From the IMG/VR virus record IMGVR_UViG_3300042691_003524, positions 1 to 23,355 of that record: DNA of 23,355 nucleotides. One strand, given 5' to 3'. Each line of letters begins with the position of its first letter. Position 1 is the first letter of the stretch. Positions 8,024 to 14,486 of this stretch are shown here, one piece after another. The notes beneath the pieces were generated by a model. The model was not told the DNA's origin, made no database searches, and was given only the letters and a program-made list of their open reading frames with translations. The position numbers and the translations under genes are program-made. This stretch comes from a virus.

Positions 8024-8236
8024 ATGACATTTACGATTGAGCGTGATCTCACTTTGGCTGAGATAGATGAGGCGATTGCTCATGCCTACAAAATGCTCAA
8101 AACAGACGAGTACGGCAACCGCATGGATTGGCGCAAACGCGAACTATTGAGTGCCAGCATTGACGATCTACTTGACGCAAGATTACAAATCAGCGTAGAG
8201 TTGGCTCATGGAGATAATCAAGGCACAACTAACTGA
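8024..8236 (+). CDS. Small hypothetical helical protein (70 aa)
   Basis: ATG 8024, ending 29 bases inside the ParB-like gene. The product begins MTFTIERDLTLAEIDEAIAH and is strongly helical and acidic. It has the appearance of a small partner protein, perhaps for the ParB-like gene it overlaps. I do not recognise the family. Confidence 0.5.
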   Translation: MTFTIERDLTLAEIDEAIAHAYKMLKTDEYGNRMDWRKRELLSASIDDLLDARLQISVELAHGDNQGTTN

Positions 8237-8879
8237 ATTAAACGAGTATGCAAAAAACCCACGCAAGGGCAACGTGGATCTGATTGCAGAGTCATTGTCA
8301 AAGTACGGTCAGTACAAGCCAATCACCGTAAACAAAGACAACAACGAGATCCTTGCAGGCAATCACACCTTTCGCGCAGCAAAGCAGTTAGGTTGGGAGA
8401 CTATTGACGTGGTTTACGTTGATGTGGACTCAGAGACAGCGGCAAAGATTGTTGCAATAGACAACAGAGCCTCAGACATGGGTGAGTACGACAACAAGGT
8501 ACTGGCTGAACTTTTGGATAGCATGAACAACCTTGAAGGATCTGGTTACACGTTTGACGAGTACGATGACCTGAAGGCTGAGATCCAGGAAAGAGATCTG
8601 CCAACACTTGAACACAAAACTCTTTTTGCTTCACTTGAAGTTGGAGAGAGTGGTCAATCAGGTACTCAGTTCATTCCAACGCTGAGCGATTACGCAGAGC
8701 GATACACCAACAAAGCAACACGTATGCTCATGCTGGACTACCACAATGACATTTACGTTTGGATAGTGGACGCGTTGATTGAATACCGCACTGCAAACGG
8801 ATTAACAAGCAATGGCGAAGCGATTTTGAAGTTGGTTGAAGAGGCAGTTGATAGGAAGTGTCCGCATGAACTTATCTGA
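8208..8879 (+). CDS. ParB/Srx-fold protein, probable first gene of DNA-modification cassette
   Basis: The first ~95 residues are a ParB N-terminal domain: KNPR (16-19), AESLSKYGQYKPITV (28-41), then the nucleotide-binding box E-I-L-A-G-N-H-T-F-R-A-A (48-58), and GWETIDVVYVDV. The second residue after GNH is Thr, a small departure from the classical GxxR/GEHR box. The C-terminal half (about 110-223) is helical and unfamiliar. ParB domains bind and hydrolyse CTP in partitioning and act as nucleases or DNA-guided adaptors in phages. Known comparative work on phage base-modification loci noted ParB-like proteins beside TET/JBP enzymes; here the next gene is one. I infer a targeting or accessory role in base modification rather than plasmid partition. 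Confidence 0.75.
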   Translation: MEIIKAQLTELNEYAKNPRKGNVDLIAESLSKYGQYKPITVNKDNNEILAGNHTFRAAKQLGWETIDVVYVDVDSETAAKIVAIDNRASDMGEYDNKVLAELLDSMNNLEGSGYTFDEYDDLKAEIQERDLPTLEHKTLFASLEVGESGQSGTQFIPTLSDYAERYTNKATRMLMLDYHNDIYVWIVDALIEYRTANGLTSNGEAILKLVEEAVDRKCPHELI

Positions 8880-9747
8880 GTTACCCGTACACCGTATCAA
8901 GCGCGTTATGTCTGAAGAAGATGCAACCGCGCTGGTAGGTACTGTTGTTCCTGATTATGAGCCAAATTGCACTGAGGCTGGGATCTGGATTGACGACGAC
9001 ACTGAAGAAGTCATTTTTGTTTACTTTCCAATGGAAGAGGAAGTTGAACTGCTGAGAGCGTCTGTGCTGAACATCAACTACGGCACAACAATCCGACAAT
9101 CAACAGGTTTGAAAAACCAATCACGCACTTTTGGCATGGCACCGCGCAAGATCTTTCAGAAGCGAGAGAGTTGCAGAGCAACCTCATTAGCCCATGAACA
9201 ACCAAATGAACACGCAGTGTTGATTGCGTTTGCAGAGAAGTTTGCCAAAATGTACAAAGAGTTTGCGCCTGAACTTTATGCAGCAGACGCCAAAGCGCTT
9301 GCAGATAACAACGTGGCTGATGAGTGGCGCATGACTGATGACGCACTGTGGACGTCTGGAGTTGTCAATAAAGCCTCAACCCTGCCTTACCACCGTGACG
9401 GTTTCAACTTTGCCACTTGGTCAGCAATGCCAGTGATCCGCAGAAAGATGAAGGGCGGATACCTGACGTTACCTGAATACAATTTCACCTGTTCATGTCG
9501 TGACGGCTGGGTGACATTTTTTGCAGGATACAAGTATGTGCATGGCGTGACACCAATGACGCCTAGCGCACCAGACTCATACCGCTATTCAATTGTTTAC
9601 TATGCGTTGCGTGGCATGAAGGATTGCTTTACGTTTGCAGTAGAGACAGCCAAAGCACGTGAGAGCAGAACCAAGCGTGAGGACAACATGGCAAAGGCGC
9701 TGAAAGGCGAGATACCTATGCCTCAGATTGGTAGCAAAAATAAGTGA
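8866..9747 (+). CDS. TET/JBP-family 2-oxoglutarate/Fe(II) dioxygenase, probable DNA thymine hydroxylase
   Basis: Iron-binding residues appear in family order: His176-Arg-Asp178 (TLPYHRDGF), the strand G-G-Y-L-T-L-P-E-Y (197-205), distal His226 in YVHGVTP, and the 2-oxoglutarate-binding Arg240 in SYRYSIVYY. N-terminal QSRTFGMAPRK (85-95) fits the TET/JBP substrate-loop region. The family hydroxylates the methyl of thymine or 5-methylcytosine within DNA. No C5-methyltransferase is in the window and the neighbours are thymine-hypermodification types, so thymine to 5-hydroxymethyluracil is favoured. ATG 8866 is preferred because AGGAAG lies about seven bases upstream; TTG 8836 would add ten residues. 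It overlaps the ParB-like stop by 14 bases. Confidence 0.85.
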   Translation: MNLSELPVHRIKRVMSEEDATALVGTVVPDYEPNCTEAGIWIDDDTEEVIFVYFPMEEEVELLRASVLNINYGTTIRQSTGLKNQSRTFGMAPRKIFQKRESCRATSLAHEQPNEHAVLIAFAEKFAKMYKEFAPELYAADAKALADNNVADEWRMTDDALWTSGVVNKASTLPYHRDGFNFATWSAMPVIRRKMKGGYLTLPEYNFTCSCRDGWVTFFAGYKYVHGVTPMTPSAPDSYRYSIVYYALRGMKDCFTFAVETAKARESRTKREDNMAKALKGEIPMPQIGSKNK

Positions 9748-10628
9748 GCCTTTGGGCTGATTACGCTCAATTTCACGAAGCGCAGACTCAATCGCGTGAC
9801 ATGGATCCTGCGTACCCAGTATTGAAATGGTTTGCTGACTCTCTTGACCGCGAAAGCGGATTGTGGCTGACGTTTTTGTTTGTTGGTTATTACCACATGG
9901 GCTCAGCGCTCAAAGCGTTCAGCCTGTATCCAACGCTGACTGTTCCAGATGAAGCAACCTTGAAATTACCTATTGCTCAACCGCGCAGATCTCACAGAGC
10001 AACATTGAAGTTTGCGCAACACCTTGACTCACTGTGCGCCAAAGCAGAGCAACACGGTGGCTTGGGGGCTTGGTTGGATAGTGCAACTACGTCTGAGGAT
10101 CCGCTGACAAATTGGAAAACACTTAACGATGAATTGACGACGGTGTTTGGCAACGGGCGCTGGGCAGCATACAAAACAGCAGAGATCTTGATGAAGTCTC
10201 ACGGGTTCAACCTTGCAGCACCCGACATGGGCAACGCCAATTCAAGTGGACCACGCAAGGGACTGGGCTTGTTCTTTCCTGGACTACCGCAAGGCAACTC
10301 ACCCGCTGAGATTGCATACCTAGATGAACTGAGCCTGAAGGTGGTTGAAAACCTCACAGGCAAAACCTCACAAGTGAGCATTGAAACGGCTGAAACCTCA
10401 CTGTGCGATTTCTACGCGCTGAACAAAGGGCGCTACTACGTCGGTATTGACATTGATGAAATGCAGGAACAGTTATTGCGTGTCCCGTCGGATCTAACTG
10501 CCATGGCGTTCAAGGCGCGATACGAGACACTGCCACACGCATACTTAGGTGAGTTGAACGGCTGGGAAGGCATAGACAAAAAGCGCAAAAGCGTTTACCG
10601 CGACACAAGAGAGATTGCACTGAGATGA
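9744..10628 (+). CDS. Amino acid:DNA transferase-like protein (aGPT-PPlase/HhH-related)
   Basis: It begins at GTG in a GTGA overlap with the dioxygenase. Recognisable parts: an N-terminal helical segment with LWLTFLFVGYYHMGSALK (40-57), the core F-G-N-G-R-W-A-A-Y-K-T-A-E-I-L (135-149), and D-M-G-N-A-N-S-S-G-P-R-K-G-L (161-174). These resemble the helix-hairpin-helix DNA-glycosylase-related alpha-glutamyl/putrescinyl thymine pyrophosphorylases, shown by Lee and colleagues to include amino acid:DNA transferases in phages such as M6 and ViI. They displace a pyrophosphate or phosphate from modified 5-hydroxymethyluracil with an amino-acid amine. Assignment rests on these motifs and neighbours and is less sure than for the dioxygenase. 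Confidence 0.65.
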   Translation: MSLWADYAQFHEAQTQSRDMDPAYPVLKWFADSLDRESGLWLTFLFVGYYHMGSALKAFSLYPTLTVPDEATLKLPIAQPRRSHRATLKFAQHLDSLCAKAEQHGGLGAWLDSATTSEDPLTNWKTLNDELTTVFGNGRWAAYKTAEILMKSHGFNLAAPDMGNANSSGPRKGLGLFFPGLPQGNSPAEIAYLDELSLKVVENLTGKTSQVSIETAETSLCDFYALNKGRYYVGIDIDEMQEQLLRVPSDLTAMAFKARYETLPHAYLGELNGWEGIDKKRKSVYRDTREIALR

Positions 10629-11440
10629 AACTAATTGTTATTGGCGCTGGCATTGCAGGATCCTCAGCAACGCGTATTGCACGTGACAAAGGCTGGGACG
10701 TGACTTTGATTGACCACGCACCAGAGCAGTCTGCGTCCAGATCTGCCCTTGCCACGATACGCCCAACATGGTTCGACAAATCTGAGCGTGATGACCTTGA
10801 AAGATCTTGGGAGTGGTACAGCGCTTGGGGTGCAGCAGGATCCAGAGAAGCGTATGTATCAAATTGGCGCAACCGAGAAGTTAAAAAACAAAAGGATTGG
10901 TGGCTGGTAGATCCTCTATTGCCGCTGGTTGAGCCTGACGTAAAAGAGCGTGTTGTTGGTTTATACACGCAACACGTTACTACTGACTCAGGACAGTTGA
11001 TTGAGGGCGACGCCATTTTGAATTGCACAGGCGCATACGGGGCAGATCTATCACGTGACGTGACTTTCTTTGCGGGTGTCACTTGGATCTCCCAAAACGC
11101 TAATTTGGACTATTCACCTTATCGTGTTCATCATTTACGACCATACAAATCACTCTCAGTTGCTCAGGTAAACGGCGTGACACGCTTGGGATCTTCAATT
11201 GCTGCAACCGCTGACAAGGCAATAGATGACGCAAAAGAGATGCTGATGACAGCGATTGCGTTAGGCATAGTCAAGTCAGGTGATTGGGAGATGTCATTAG
11301 GCTGGAGAGCAAAGGGCAAAGGCGGCATACCGATTTACCCAGAGTTAGGTCAGCGCAACGCTTATTTCTCAGGATTAGCCAGAAGCGGATACGGGCTATC
11401 ACCTGCTATCGCTGAGAAGTGGATTGAGAGTTTGCCTTAA
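10625..11440 (+). CDS. FAD-dependent oxidoreductase (glycine-oxidase/DAO type), probable base-tailoring enzyme
   Basis: An ATGA overlap couples it to the transferase. The N-terminus has the Rossmann FAD motif G-A-G-I-A-G (7-12) and the strand VTLID. The middle has an L-N-C-T-G-A-Y-G segment and the C-terminus G-L-A-R-S-G-Y-G-L-S-P, both typical of D-amino-acid-oxidase-like flavoproteins. At 271 aa it is shorter than the usual ~350-400, so part of the substrate domain is probably reduced. In known thymine-hypermodification phages, flavin-dependent lyases act on the amino acid attached to the base (for example glycine, leaving an aminomethyl group). I infer that role from position; an amino-acid oxidase for free substrate is the alternative. 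Confidence 0.7.
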   Translation: MKLIVIGAGIAGSSATRIARDKGWDVTLIDHAPEQSASRSALATIRPTWFDKSERDDLERSWEWYSAWGAAGSREAYVSNWRNREVKKQKDWWLVDPLLPLVEPDVKERVVGLYTQHVTTDSGQLIEGDAILNCTGAYGADLSRDVTFFAGVTWISQNANLDYSPYRVHHLRPYKSLSVAQVNGVTRLGSSIAATADKAIDDAKEMLMTAIALGIVKSGDWEMSLGWRAKGKGGIPIYPELGQRNAYFSGLARSGYGLSPAIAEKWIESLP

Positions 11441-11469
11441 TTACAAAACACAGTTAGATTACGGCTACT

Positions 11470-11487
11470 GGCAGGCAACCGCCTGTT
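11470..11487 (+). other. Short GC-rich hairpin
   Basis: CAGGC (11472-11476) pairs with GCCTG (11481-11485) across a 4-base loop, with two G-U pairs extending it outward. There is no T-run after it. It lies 30 bases past the flavoenzyme stop and may stabilise the mRNA end or aid the terminator just downstream. Confidence 0.5.
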
Positions 11488-11498
11488 GAGTGCTGGAC

Positions 11499-11532
11499 AA
11501 CACCCTTATTCAATCTGAGTAGGGGTTTTGTT
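11499..11532 (+). terminator. Rho-independent terminator after the flavoenzyme gene
   Basis: CCCTTATTC (11503-11511) pairs with GAGTAGGGG (11517-11525) along nine positions (two G-U pairs), with a 5-base loop AATCT, followed by TTTTGTT (11526-11532). This stem plus T-tract is a standard intrinsic terminator. It would separate transcription of the ParB-TET-transferase-FAD genes from the lipoprotein and kinase genes, although readthrough is possible. Confidence 0.75.
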
Positions 11533-11549
11533 CGATAGAGGGGGCAAAC

Positions 11550-11960
11550 ATGAAAAAACAAATTGGCATTGGAATTGTAGTTTTACTGGCAGTGACGGGT
11601 TTAACAGGTTGCAATTCAGATGCAGACGTGGCTTCACGCAATTTATCTGTTGCGGCAGAGCAATTTGAAATTCAACGACGCGTAGTGTTTTTTAACGGTA
11701 TTACCGACAAGTATTTATTAGAGATTACAGGCTTGTGTTCAGTTGAAACCAGTGACGCAGCATTAGGCGGATCGCTGGAAGTAACCTGCAAAACTGGACC
11801 AACTACATTCAAAAAGCATTTTTTGGGGCTGAGCGACAACGTATCGTATTTTGTTGAGCAGATTGAAAGCGTCAACGCAAGTGTTTACAACTACCGCGTA
11901 ATTTTCAAGCCTGACGTAATTGTTCCAAACATTGATTTGAAGACTCAGATTGGCAAATAA
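11550..11960 (+). CDS. Lipoprotein of unknown function
   Basis: A basic start (MKK), a hydrophobic segment (IGIGIVVLLAVTGLTG) and the lipobox L-T-G-C with Cys21 mark a lipoprotein exported and anchored in the membrane. The rest, about 115 residues, is polar and beta-rich. A strong AGAGGGGG lies just before the ATG. It sits behind the terminator, so it may have its own promoter. Phage lipoproteins of this size commonly block superinfection, but this is inferred. It is an odd member of a DNA-modification neighbourhood. Confidence 0.75.
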   Translation: MKKQIGIGIVVLLAVTGLTGCNSDADVASRNLSVAAEQFEIQRRVVFFNGITDKYLLEITGLCSVETSDAALGGSLEVTCKTGPTTFKKHFLGLSDNVSYFVEQIESVNASVYNYRVIFKPDVIVPNIDLKTQIGK

Positions 11961-12493
11961 TGAAGATTATTTACCTCATAGGCGCGCCAGGATCAGGCAA
12001 AACAACTTTGACAGAAGCATTTACACACGATTGGAGAGACAGCGCTAACCATGAAGATCCAATCAAATTCAGAACCCACCATACCCCGTATGGCGACGCA
12101 CTCTCACTTGGCTGGCTCAGACCAACGTTTGGCGGAACAGACACGCTTGGCAATACGGCGATACTTGCGATTGAACCGTGGCTACCAAGGATCGCCAAAG
12201 ACTATTCAATCATTTACGGAGAAGGCGACAGACTAGCCAACTCACGTTTTTTTGATTTGTGTAAGGGCATTGGAGAGTTCCACCTGTTCTACCTGAACAC
12301 TGAGCCTGCACTGTGCGCTGAGCGTAGGGCGCAAAGATCGGCAATAACAGGTAAAACACAAAACCCTACTTGGGTTAAAGGCAGAGAGACTAAGCACCGC
12401 AACCTTGCTAACACGTACAAGGCGTTTGAGATACCGTCAGGACTAACACCTCAGGCTGGCGCGGATCTCATGCGTAATGTAATCTTTTCCTGA
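11960..12493 (+). CDS. P-loop kinase-like protein, candidate 5-hydroxymethyluracil DNA kinase
   Basis: The Walker A loop G-A-P-G-S-G-K-T is residues 8-15. An internal strand ends Y-S-I-I-Y-G-E-G-D-R-L-A-N (82-94), placing acidic Glu88/Asp90 as in small-molecule or base kinases, preceded by LRPTFGGTDTLG (53-64), and followed by an Arg-rich lid (CAERRAQRS). At 177 aa it is the size of a nucleotide kinase. Known thymine-hypermodification loci encode a kinase that phosphorylates 5-hydroxymethyluracil in DNA before amino-acid transfer; this matches by motif and locus. A gene for a free-nucleotide kinase is the alternative. TAATG overlap with the lipoprotein. Confidence 0.65.
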   Translation: MKIIYLIGAPGSGKTTLTEAFTHDWRDSANHEDPIKFRTHHTPYGDALSLGWLRPTFGGTDTLGNTAILAIEPWLPRIAKDYSIIYGEGDRLANSRFFDLCKGIGEFHLFYLNTEPALCAERRAQRSAITGKTQNPTWVKGRETKHRNLANTYKAFEIPSGLTPQAGADLMRNVIFS

Positions 12494-12509: not shown

Positions 12510-12764
12510 ATGAGAAAACATGTTGGTAAGGCACACAAAAAGCAGAACAAACCTGCGTCTCTATTTGATTGCGATTTTAACGAGATTGATGAGTTTGCAG
12601 ATTACGTAAAGACTCAGACAACCCTTAAAATTATGCGCACGATTGAAAACAAAATAATTGACCACGTGTTAGATAACTCTTGCTGGCAGTTGTGCGATTA
12701 CACAGACACATTACAAGAAATAGTAAATTTACTATCAACGGAAGTTGAAGCAAAACACGTATGA
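12510..12764 (+). CDS. Hypothetical protein (84 aa)
   Basis: The ATG follows a GGAAA by several bases. A basic N-terminus (MRKHVGKAHKKQNK) precedes an acidic, helical body (FNEIDEFADYVKTQTTL). No known motif is visible. It overlaps the terminase small subunit start by four bases (ATGA), so it may belong to the packaging block. Confidence 0.55.
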   Translation: MRKHVGKAHKKQNKPASLFDCDFNEIDEFADYVKTQTTLKIMRTIENKIIDHVLDNSCWQLCDYTDTLQEIVNLLSTEVEAKHV

Positions 12765-13243
12765 GAAAAACACCGCCACCAGAGCAGATAGACAAAGAGA
12801 TCAGAGTGCTTGAATTGAAGCGCTCAGGGGCTACTTGGGACGCTATCGCTGAGGTAGTTGGATACGCAAACGGTTCAGGCGCGTTTAAGGCATACCAAAG
12901 GGCAATGGTGCGCACACAACAGCAACCCGCTGATGAACTGCGCAACATGGAGATTGACCGCCTAGACCGATTGCAGAGAGCGCATTGGTTTGACGCAATA
13001 GGTACGAAAGACATGTTGCCCAACATCAAGGCAGGCGAGTTTGTTTTGAAGTGCATACAAGAGCGCAGTAAGTTGTTAGGACTTTACGCGCCAACAAAGA
13101 TCCAAGCAGAGGTGGTTACGTATGACGCAAGCGGAATTGAAGCCGACATTGAGCGAATTGCCCATAACCTCAGAGGAATGGATCAGGGCGTCACGCTGGC
13201 GCTGGAAGCAGGAACAGGCGAGACAGGAACAACTACCGCCTGA
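12761..13243 (+). CDS. Terminase small subunit-like protein
   Basis: The N-terminal ~50 residues form a helix-turn-helix (RVLELKRSGATWDAIAEVVG) of the kind that binds the packaging site; the middle is a long charged helix (ELRNMEIDRLDRLQRAHWFD) and the C-terminus is acidic/Gly-Thr rich. This pattern and the position directly before terL fit the small subunit, which recognises phage DNA and recruits the large subunit. The last 120 bases overlap the terL start at 13122, which is typical in actinobacteriophages. Confidence 0.75.
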   Translation: MRKTPPPEQIDKEIRVLELKRSGATWDAIAEVVGYANGSGAFKAYQRAMVRTQQQPADELRNMEIDRLDRLQRAHWFDAIGTKDMLPNIKAGEFVLKCIQERSKLLGLYAPTKIQAEVVTYDASGIEADIERIAHNLRGMDQGVTLALEAGTGETGTTTA

Positions 13244-14486
13244 GGGTGACTGGGCTATTTGGTTGTACATGGCTGGGCGCGGTGCAGGTAAGACACGCAC
13301 TGCAGCAGAGTGGCTTGCTTGGGAAGCAATCAGCCAACCCAACACGCGCTGGGCGATAGTTGGACCAACGTACGGTGACGCAAGAGATACCTGCGCTGAA
13401 GGCGAGTCAGGCGTACTCAATGTCCTGAGACGTTACAAGGTGTTGAAGGATTGGAACAGATCGCTTGGCGAGATCCTTTTGCACAACGGATCGCAGATAA
13501 AACTATTCTCAGCAGACAAGCCTGATCGTTTCCGTGGACCACAGCATCACGGCGCGTGGTGTGATGAGTTAGCGGCATACCGTTATTCAGACGCGTGGGA
13601 TCAGTTGCAGTTTGGTATGCGTCTGGGAGATAAACCGCGCATTGTCGTCACAACAACACCGAGACCAACCGCGCTCATCAGAGCATTAGCAGGGCGCAAT
13701 GACGGATCTGTGGCAATCACTCGCGGATCTACTTTTGACAATGCTGCCAACCTTGCACCTTCAGCGCTGCTTGAACTAGAAGCCAGATACGCAGGCACCA
13801 GATTAGGGCGTCAGGAACTGTTTGGCGAGATTTTGGACGACGTTGAGGGCGCATTGTGGACTAGGGGACTTATTGAGCGAAATAGGCTTCAGAAGGCTCC
13901 AGCGCTGGCAAGAATAGTCGTGTCCGTGGATCCCGCAGTCACTAATACAAAAGATAGCGATGAGACGGGAATTGTTGTGTTGGGATCTGACGCGCAAGGA
14001 CATGGATACGTGTTGGGTGATTACTCTTTCAAGGGTTCTCCATTAGATTGGGCAAGCAAAGCAGTTTCAGTTTTTGACGAGTGGAAAGCAGACTCAATCC
14101 TGGTTGAAGTCAATCAGGGCGGTGACATGGTGAGCGCGGTGTTGAAGCAGATCCGATTAGGGCTACCAATCCGAGAAGTGCGAGCGCACGTGGGTAAGAG
14201 ATTACGCGCTGAGCCAGTTGCAGCAATGTATGAGCAGGGACGTATCCACCACATTGGGGAGTTCGCCAAATTAGAGGATCAAATGACCGTGTGGACGCCA
14301 GAGGATCCAGACTCACCAGATCGCATTGACGCAATGGTGCAGGGGTTTGCAGATCTCTTAGGCACGCAAAACGTGATGAATTACTTTAACGCCATTGCTA
14401 ACTTTTGCCCTCAGTGCAACCTGCCCAACCCTAAGTCGTCACCTATGTGTTTGAAGTGTGGAAGCGCTATCATTACACCAGCCTGA
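13122..14486 (+). CDS. terL: Terminase large subunit with C-terminal zinc ribbon
   Basis: The DNA-packaging motor. Walker A A-G-R-G-A-G-K-T is at 51-58; Walker B acidic pair is in HGAWCDELAAYR; a coupling motif is T-T-T-P-R-P-T. The C-terminal RNase H-like nuclease has VSVDPAVTNTKDSDETG (first Asp), an internal Glu in DSILVEVNQGGD, and Asp in PDRIDAMVQG. The normal domain set ends near residue 415. The last ~28 residues form a separate four-Cys ribbon (Cys429, Cys432, Cys443, Cys446), which is unusual for TerL. It overlaps the small-subunit gene; the portal start is 31 bases downstream. Confidence 0.95.
   Translation: MTQAELKPTLSELPITSEEWIRASRWRWKQEQARQEQLPPEGDWAIWLYMAGRGAGKTRTAAEWLAWEAISQPNTRWAIVGPTYGDARDTCAEGESGVLNVLRRYKVLKDWNRSLGEILLHNGSQIKLFSADKPDRFRGPQHHGAWCDELAAYRYSDAWDQLQFGMRLGDKPRIVVTTTPRPTALIRALAGRNDGSVAITRGSTFDNAANLAPSALLELEARYAGTRLGRQELFGEILDDVEGALWTRGLIERNRLQKAPALARIVVSVDPAVTNTKDSDETGIVVLGSDAQGHGYVLGDYSFKGSPLDWASKAVSVFDEWKADSILVEVNQGGDMVSAVLKQIRLGLPIREVRAHVGKRLRAEPVAAMYEQGRIHHIGEFAKLEDQMTVWTPEDPDSPDRIDAMVQGFADLLGTQNVMNYFNAIANFCPQCNLPNPKSSPMCLKCGSAIITPA

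Follow-up and report, generated by a model that had tools for sequence, protein, structure and literature searches.

The window analysed here is a virus fragment of 23,355 nucleotides (IMG/VR record IMGVR_UViG_3300042691_003524), and the genome to which it belongs is seen only in that part. A WhiB gene, together with matches in an Actinomycetota metagenome-assembled genome and a Corynebacterium genome, points to (freshwater) actinobacteria as hosts. Ahead of the terminase genes lies a cassette by which, with a probability of about 0.78 in our estimate, an actinobacterial phage hypermodifies thymine after replication. The locus contains the following genes, with the significance of the Pfam match in each case:

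8208..8879, + strand: ParB-like protein (ParB_N, PF02195; phrog_723; Pfam 4e-7)
8866..9747 (open reading frame 8836-9747), + strand: TET/JBP 2-oxoglutarate (2OG)-Fe(II) dioxygenase (Tet_JBP, PF12851; Pfam 4e-11)
9744..10628, + strand: amino acid:DNA transferase (ADDT, PF18724; Pfam 3.5e-17)
10625..11440, + strand: DAO-type flavoprotein (DAO, PF01266; Pfam 2.7e-13)
11550..11960, + strand: lipoprotein-like gene (Phage_VG64, PF25682; Pfam 1e-52)
11960..12493, + strand: P-loop kinase (Ploopntkinase3, PF18751; Pfam 3.7e-26)
12761..13243, + strand: putative terminase small subunit (TerS), assigned by position, with no Pfam match; kept in cassette-less relatives too
13122..14486, + strand: terminase large subunit (TerL), the right-hand anchor of the modification slot

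The initial annotation had named five of these genes (ParB, TET/JBP, ADDT, DAO and kinase), and all were recovered at the same coordinates on the + strand; the profile search that it proposed as a check assigned each protein to a Pfam family above the cut-off. Its description of the genes as tightly coupled holds for the first four, which overlap successively by 14, 4 and 4 bases. The DAO gene, however, is separated from the kinase by 109 bases and the lipoprotein-like gene, which had gone unmentioned; the kinase is then followed by a small gene, the putative TerS and TerL. The lipoprotein-like gene (11550-11960) is confined to the window and contigs near-identical to it, whereas in other relatives DAO adjoins the kinase, and it is probably a private insertion outside the pathway. 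PHROG tags its Phage_VG64-type family as 'RDF', a label that seems doubtful given how lipoprotein-like the sequence is. Chance open reading frames were ruled out by conservation of motifs over dozens of contigs. The arrangement as a whole is far beyond chance, since 21 distinct slots share the gene set and its catalytic motifs are invariant.

For the dioxygenase the likeliest start is ATG 8866 rather than TTG 8836, because relatives conserve only the sequence from MNLSELP onward. Its iron ligands (HxD...H) and 2OG-binding arginine are invariant in 18 homologues and correspond in the window to H186, D188, H236 and R250 (numbered from 8836). When the TET profile was compared with the PDB, the nearest solved relatives were the Naegleria Tet-like dioxygenases, at a weak 0.0014; the top match, 6wvs, was rejected as an artefact produced by the repeats in a designed TIM barrel. 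In many phage records TET/JBP dioxygenases are labelled 'queuine tRNA-ribosyltransferase' (phrog_6059), a probable misannotation. In a search of NCBIfam, none of TET, ADDT and the kinase matched a specific family.

The window ADDT scores 63 bits against a PF18724 cut-off of 26. Protein gp51 of Pseudomonas phage M6 is a member of this family, and the two align end to end in hhalign, with gp51 itself inside the profile. As its inclusion made the comparison circular, the PDB was searched with a profile excluding M6 gp51, which matched 25qc ('amino acid:DNA transferase', 7e-15) and 8z2m ('glycinyltransferase', 4e-9). For the flavoprotein, a DAO profile built without any characterised (M6/PaMx11) member found 8z79/8z2o, a 'flavin-dependent lyase', as the best of 177,635 PDB sequences (1.8e-13; next best 2e-8); the window protein as a single sequence matched the lyase at 0.003. 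The flavoprotein shares a P-[ST]-W-F motif with this lyase and contains the FAD-binding GxGxxG, and divergent homologues of the cassette proteins keep their active-site residues. We propose from this likeness that it cleaves N-glycyl-T in DNA. The PDB entries matched by ADDT and DAO are presumably gp46 and gp47 of phage PaMx11. In Wen's 2024 work these two reportedly turn 5-phosphomethyl-deoxyuridine (5-phosphomethyl-dU) first into N-glycyl-T and thereafter into 5-aminomethyl-dU.

The fifth protein, described in the initial annotation as base kinase-like, is indeed a P-loop kinase, with an intact Walker A motif (GAPGSGKT). It belongs to PF18751, however; PF18748, the M6-type 5-hydroxymethyl-dU (5-hmdU) DNA kinase family, was not reported for it, and its profile found generic P-loop matches only in the PDB. 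We propose that it acts as a 5-hmdU DNA kinase.

A scan of 2.9 million viral contigs yielded dozens of related loci, and the counts that follow are of slots that could be read between ParB and TerS/TerL. The window type, TET-ADDT-DAO-kinase, fills the 21 distinct slots mentioned above, and three contigs have TET shifted to the opposite end of the gene set. TET-ADDT-kinase and TET-ADDT-kinase with an enzyme resembling those dependent on pyridoxal phosphate (PLP) before the kinase account together for 19 slots, TET-kinase for 8, and TET with other proteins but neither kinase nor ADDT for 14. The remaining slots are empty or hold a ParB-profile protein with an N6/N4 methylase domain. ADDT is accompanied by the kinase in 40 of 40 cases, and none of the 14 kinase-less TET slots has ADDT (Fisher p 1e-8, uncorrected for relatedness). 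Among TerL-related contigs, a sample gathered mainly by TerL that includes four comparator phages and some cassette-retrieved contigs, the kinase is present in 26/26 TET slots and 0/20 TET-less ones. When 61 TET proteins are placed on a maximum-likelihood tree, the downstream module must change at least 17 times, and L184, of a glucosyltransferase type, is sister to L185, of the kinase type (support 100/98). One TET product thus appears to feed several alternative branches.

Two other proteins occupy the position of the flavoprotein. A PALP-like, PLP-dependent protein (phrog_3650; L056:8017-9099, L171:7901-8944 and relatives) lies between ADDT and kinase as an alternative sculpting enzyme; its family gave no direct match to M6 gp52. 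In phage LilMcDreamy, whose ADDT is divergent, the gene between ADDT and kinase (L005:2656-3759), at the sculpting position, encodes an Asp/Arg beta-hydroxylase-like protein. At the other end of the locus, TET-less sisters (L092:8275-9477, L104, L106, L088) fill the ParB slot with a ParB-profile protein of 401-411 amino acids; in L092 this has an N6/N4 DNA methylase domain, and in L106 it is followed by a Dam-like gene. The ParB-like protein may target DNA, a role that would fit its exchange, within that slot, for a ParB-profile protein bearing a methylase. As a side reading, the locus before the terminase genes might be a general DNA-modification slot.

In the TET slots devoid of kinase and ADDT, two protein families come after TET. 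Family A6 (L152:6873-7799; also L148, L149, L155, L159, L190) has a predicted structure (confidence score pLDDT 88) whose best PDB match is T4 beta-glucosyltransferase (1bgt, E 1.9e-8, TM score 0.71), and it is usually followed by a protein of 150-190 amino acids lacking a family assignment. The predicted structure of family A7 (L169, L173, L180, L181, L184; pLDDT 76) resembles GT-B glycosyltransferases, T4 alpha-glucosyltransferase among them. Arthrobacter phage Altadena carries an annotated glycosyltransferase along with ParB and TET. Judging from these models, sister contigs with glucosyltransferases instead of ADDT and kinase are possibly a phage branch that makes something like base J.

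No dUMP hydroxymethylase or thymidylate synthase (TS) was found in the window fragment. A Pfam search of 8 complete isolate genomes with TET cassettes found no TS/dUMP hydroxymethylase, ThyX or C5-cytosine methyltransferase (C5-MTase). TS was likewise lacking from 17 near-full-length (34-42 kb) TET-bearing relatives, PF00303 from every TET-cassette viral record tested, and ThyX from the first set of these, whereas M6, used as a control, gave a positive TS match. A short gene of MementoMori labelled ThyX-like was discarded, as it falls short of the ThyX profile. Because the relatives are without TS or dUMP hydroxymethylase, a nucleotide-pool origin of the hydroxymethyl group is unlikely. The window is a fragment and M6-type phages do use that route, so that a hydroxymethylase encoded elsewhere in the genome might make 5-hmdUMP and leave TET only to top up or oxidise further; given the consistent lack of PF00303 and ThyX in the records just named, we regard this as extremely improbable.

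The pathway that we favour would begin with the TET/JBP dioxygenase, perhaps directed by its ParB-like partner, oxidising thymine at its methyl group, within duplex DNA, to 5-hydroxymethyluracil (5hmU). The P-loop kinase would then phosphorylate the hydroxymethyl group to yield 5-phosphomethyl-dU, and ADDT would swap the phosphate for an amino acid, most likely glycine (N-glycyl-T). Finally, oxidative cleavage of that amino acid by the flavoprotein would give 5-aminomethyl-dU or something close to it, and this end product would most likely protect the phage DNA from host restriction enzymes. Family membership, intact catalytic motifs, linkage, module swapping and the lack of a nucleotide-pool route in relatives were computed here; the substrate base, the order of steps, the amino acid, the product and the biological role are what we infer. 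The succession of oxidation, phosphorylation, amino acid attachment and flavin-dependent trimming proposed in the initial annotation is thus well supported as regards families, linkage, solved homologues of the last two steps and the lack of dUMP hydroxymethylase/TS in complete relatives, and less so in the choice of thymine over 5-methylcytosine (5mC) and in the phosphorylation of 5hmU by a kinase of this family.

Several observations speak against this pathway, and most bear on its weakest links, which are the activity of the kinase and the identity of the base. The kinase resembles M6 gp54 weakly (hhalign 86%, mostly Walker A). Beyond the TET-matching records, about 290 phage records, mostly of Mycobacterium, have the kinase family, and the two examined, UncleHowie and Zenteno07, carry it directly before TerL without TET or TS. 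Since the family adjoins TerL in such mycobacteriophages, kinase activity cannot be read from the family alone. Contig L218 is an exception to the linkage: ParB, DAO and kinase precede its TerS-TerL, and a search of its 60 kb found no TET, ADDT or TS. Of the 17 near-full-length relatives, 5 (G026, G028, G030, G033, G034) have C5-MTase-like sequences, of which one is intact (392 amino acids) and the others are split or partial; two of these sequences lie in DAO-type relatives some 2.5 kb from TET. No virion DNA chemistry was found for the window phage or any TET-cassette relative.

The mycobacteriophage examples, and the label 'terminase small subunit' given to phrog_800, which holds Ploopntkinase3-type kinases, would fit a P-loop protein that serves in packaging or nucleotide metabolism, as a terminase small subunit or deoxynucleoside monophosphate kinase, and merely lies beside the cassette. 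The label is doubtful, however, because M6 gp54, which Pfam files as a 5-hmdU DNA kinase, bears it too, and because Arthrobacter phage Kharcho has the kinase as well as a separate annotated TerS. The relatives of the window also carry the kinase plus a separate small terminase-like gene, and the retention of the putative TerS in cassette-less relatives suggests that the kinase is not needed as TerS in the window phage. Moreover, in the window lineage the kinase is not found where TET is missing and always accompanies ADDT. A bystander role is therefore rather unlikely.

A cytosine route, in which TET oxidises the 5mC that a C5-MTase of phage or host has made, and kinase, ADDT and DAO then decorate 5-hydroxymethylcytosine, draws on the methyltransferase matches listed above and on the characterised phage TETs, which act on 5mC (Burke 2021, cited in PMC12730594). 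C5-MTase (PF00145) is nevertheless absent from all 8 complete isolates, from 12/17 near-full-length relatives and from 19/20 glycosyltransferase-type records (many of which are fragments), and the two last enzymes have solved homologues whose names refer to 5hmU-derived chemistry. We consider this route distinctly improbable for the window. That most relatives are without C5-MTase favours thymine, which would be the simplest substrate, with 5mC possible in a minority of relatives. In L161 (3304-3897), L172 (3341-3901) and L232, C5-MTase-like genes about 2.5 kb upstream of TET are split in two frames.

Iyer et al. reportedly predicted, in 2013, hydroxymethyl pyrimidines from phage TET/JBP enzymes as starting points. 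PMC6449724 cites their study for pathway predictions. Thymine hypermodification by way of 5-hmdU, a DNA kinase and transferases is established in M6, ViI and phiW-14, where 5-hmdU in DNA is phosphorylated by the 5-hmdU DNA kinase and further modified, guarding against Type II restriction (PMC6449724). M6 shares with the window the ADDT family, a DNA kinase step and later sculpting enzymes, including a flavin lyase of the class solved as 8z2o/8z79. It differs in its entry, a TS-like dUMP hydroxymethylase acting in the nucleotide pool, and in its PF18748/PF18723 kinase proteins, where the window has TET and PF18751. The TET-based C5-cytosine hypermodification of phages (Burke 2021) has the same TET/JBP entry step on DNA but uses a C5-MTase and glycosyltransferases, as described in PMC12730594; the window type has ADDT, kinase and flavoenzyme, and its relatives are usually without C5-MTase. 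Base J of kinetoplastids likewise starts with TET/JBP hydroxylation (JBP1/JBP2) of thymine in DNA; its next step, unlike that of the window, is glucosylation, which resembles the glucosyltransferase-type sister slots.

The only direct precedent found in the literature for a TET-based cassette is the 'five-gene thymine hypermodification system' of Rhodococcus phage Tonitrus, published in 2025 (PMC11955845). It comprises ParB, a Tet-like JBP, aGPT-Pplase2/ADDT and a 5-hmU kinase and was interpreted in the same way, but it has no recognisable DAO, in place of which stands an unassigned protein of about 290 amino acids. The window fits the TET-entry type of Tonitrus in that it has a TET with intact Fe/2OG ligands and linked ADDT and P-loop kinase. 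Genes 1-5 of Mycobacterium phages Phelemich and Reprobate (Acadianvirus) follow the ParB-TET-ADDT-DAO-kinase order of the window, directly before TerL, with identities of 46% (ADDT), 42% (TET), 33% (DAO) and 34% (kinase), although they are annotated merely as hypothetical, oxidoreductase or adenylate kinase. These phages lack the lipoprotein insertion and a separate annotated TerS. Phage Kozie also has TET-ADDT-DAO-kinase, and Nigel and KayaCho have TET with the kinase alone. The suggestion that this order with a TET entry was under-described is not supported in view of Phelemich, Reprobate and the published Tonitrus cassette. The window cassette is a further example of a system that has been predicted but, as far as we found, not biochemically demonstrated, with the lipoprotein insertion as its private feature.

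Within one phage lineage, hydroxylation of thymine by TET may serve as a socket, into which are fitted either a kinase and ADDT, supplemented or not by a flavin lyase or a PLP enzyme, or else predicted glucosyltransferases, the latter giving a phage-encoded base J or close analogue without a cytosine methylase. We offer this tentatively, at somewhat less than even odds. Thymine in finished DNA is normally regarded as an unmodified base. If the proposed pathway is correct, phage enzymes hydroxylate it there and then add amino acid chemistry, with nucleotide pools and polymerase unchanged, and the cassette enzymes could be put to use in writing amines onto ordinary DNA. Its swapped modules make the lineage a natural series, so that the role of each enzyme could be tested by comparison of phages, and cultured proxy phages on M. 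smegmatis mc2 155 already exist.

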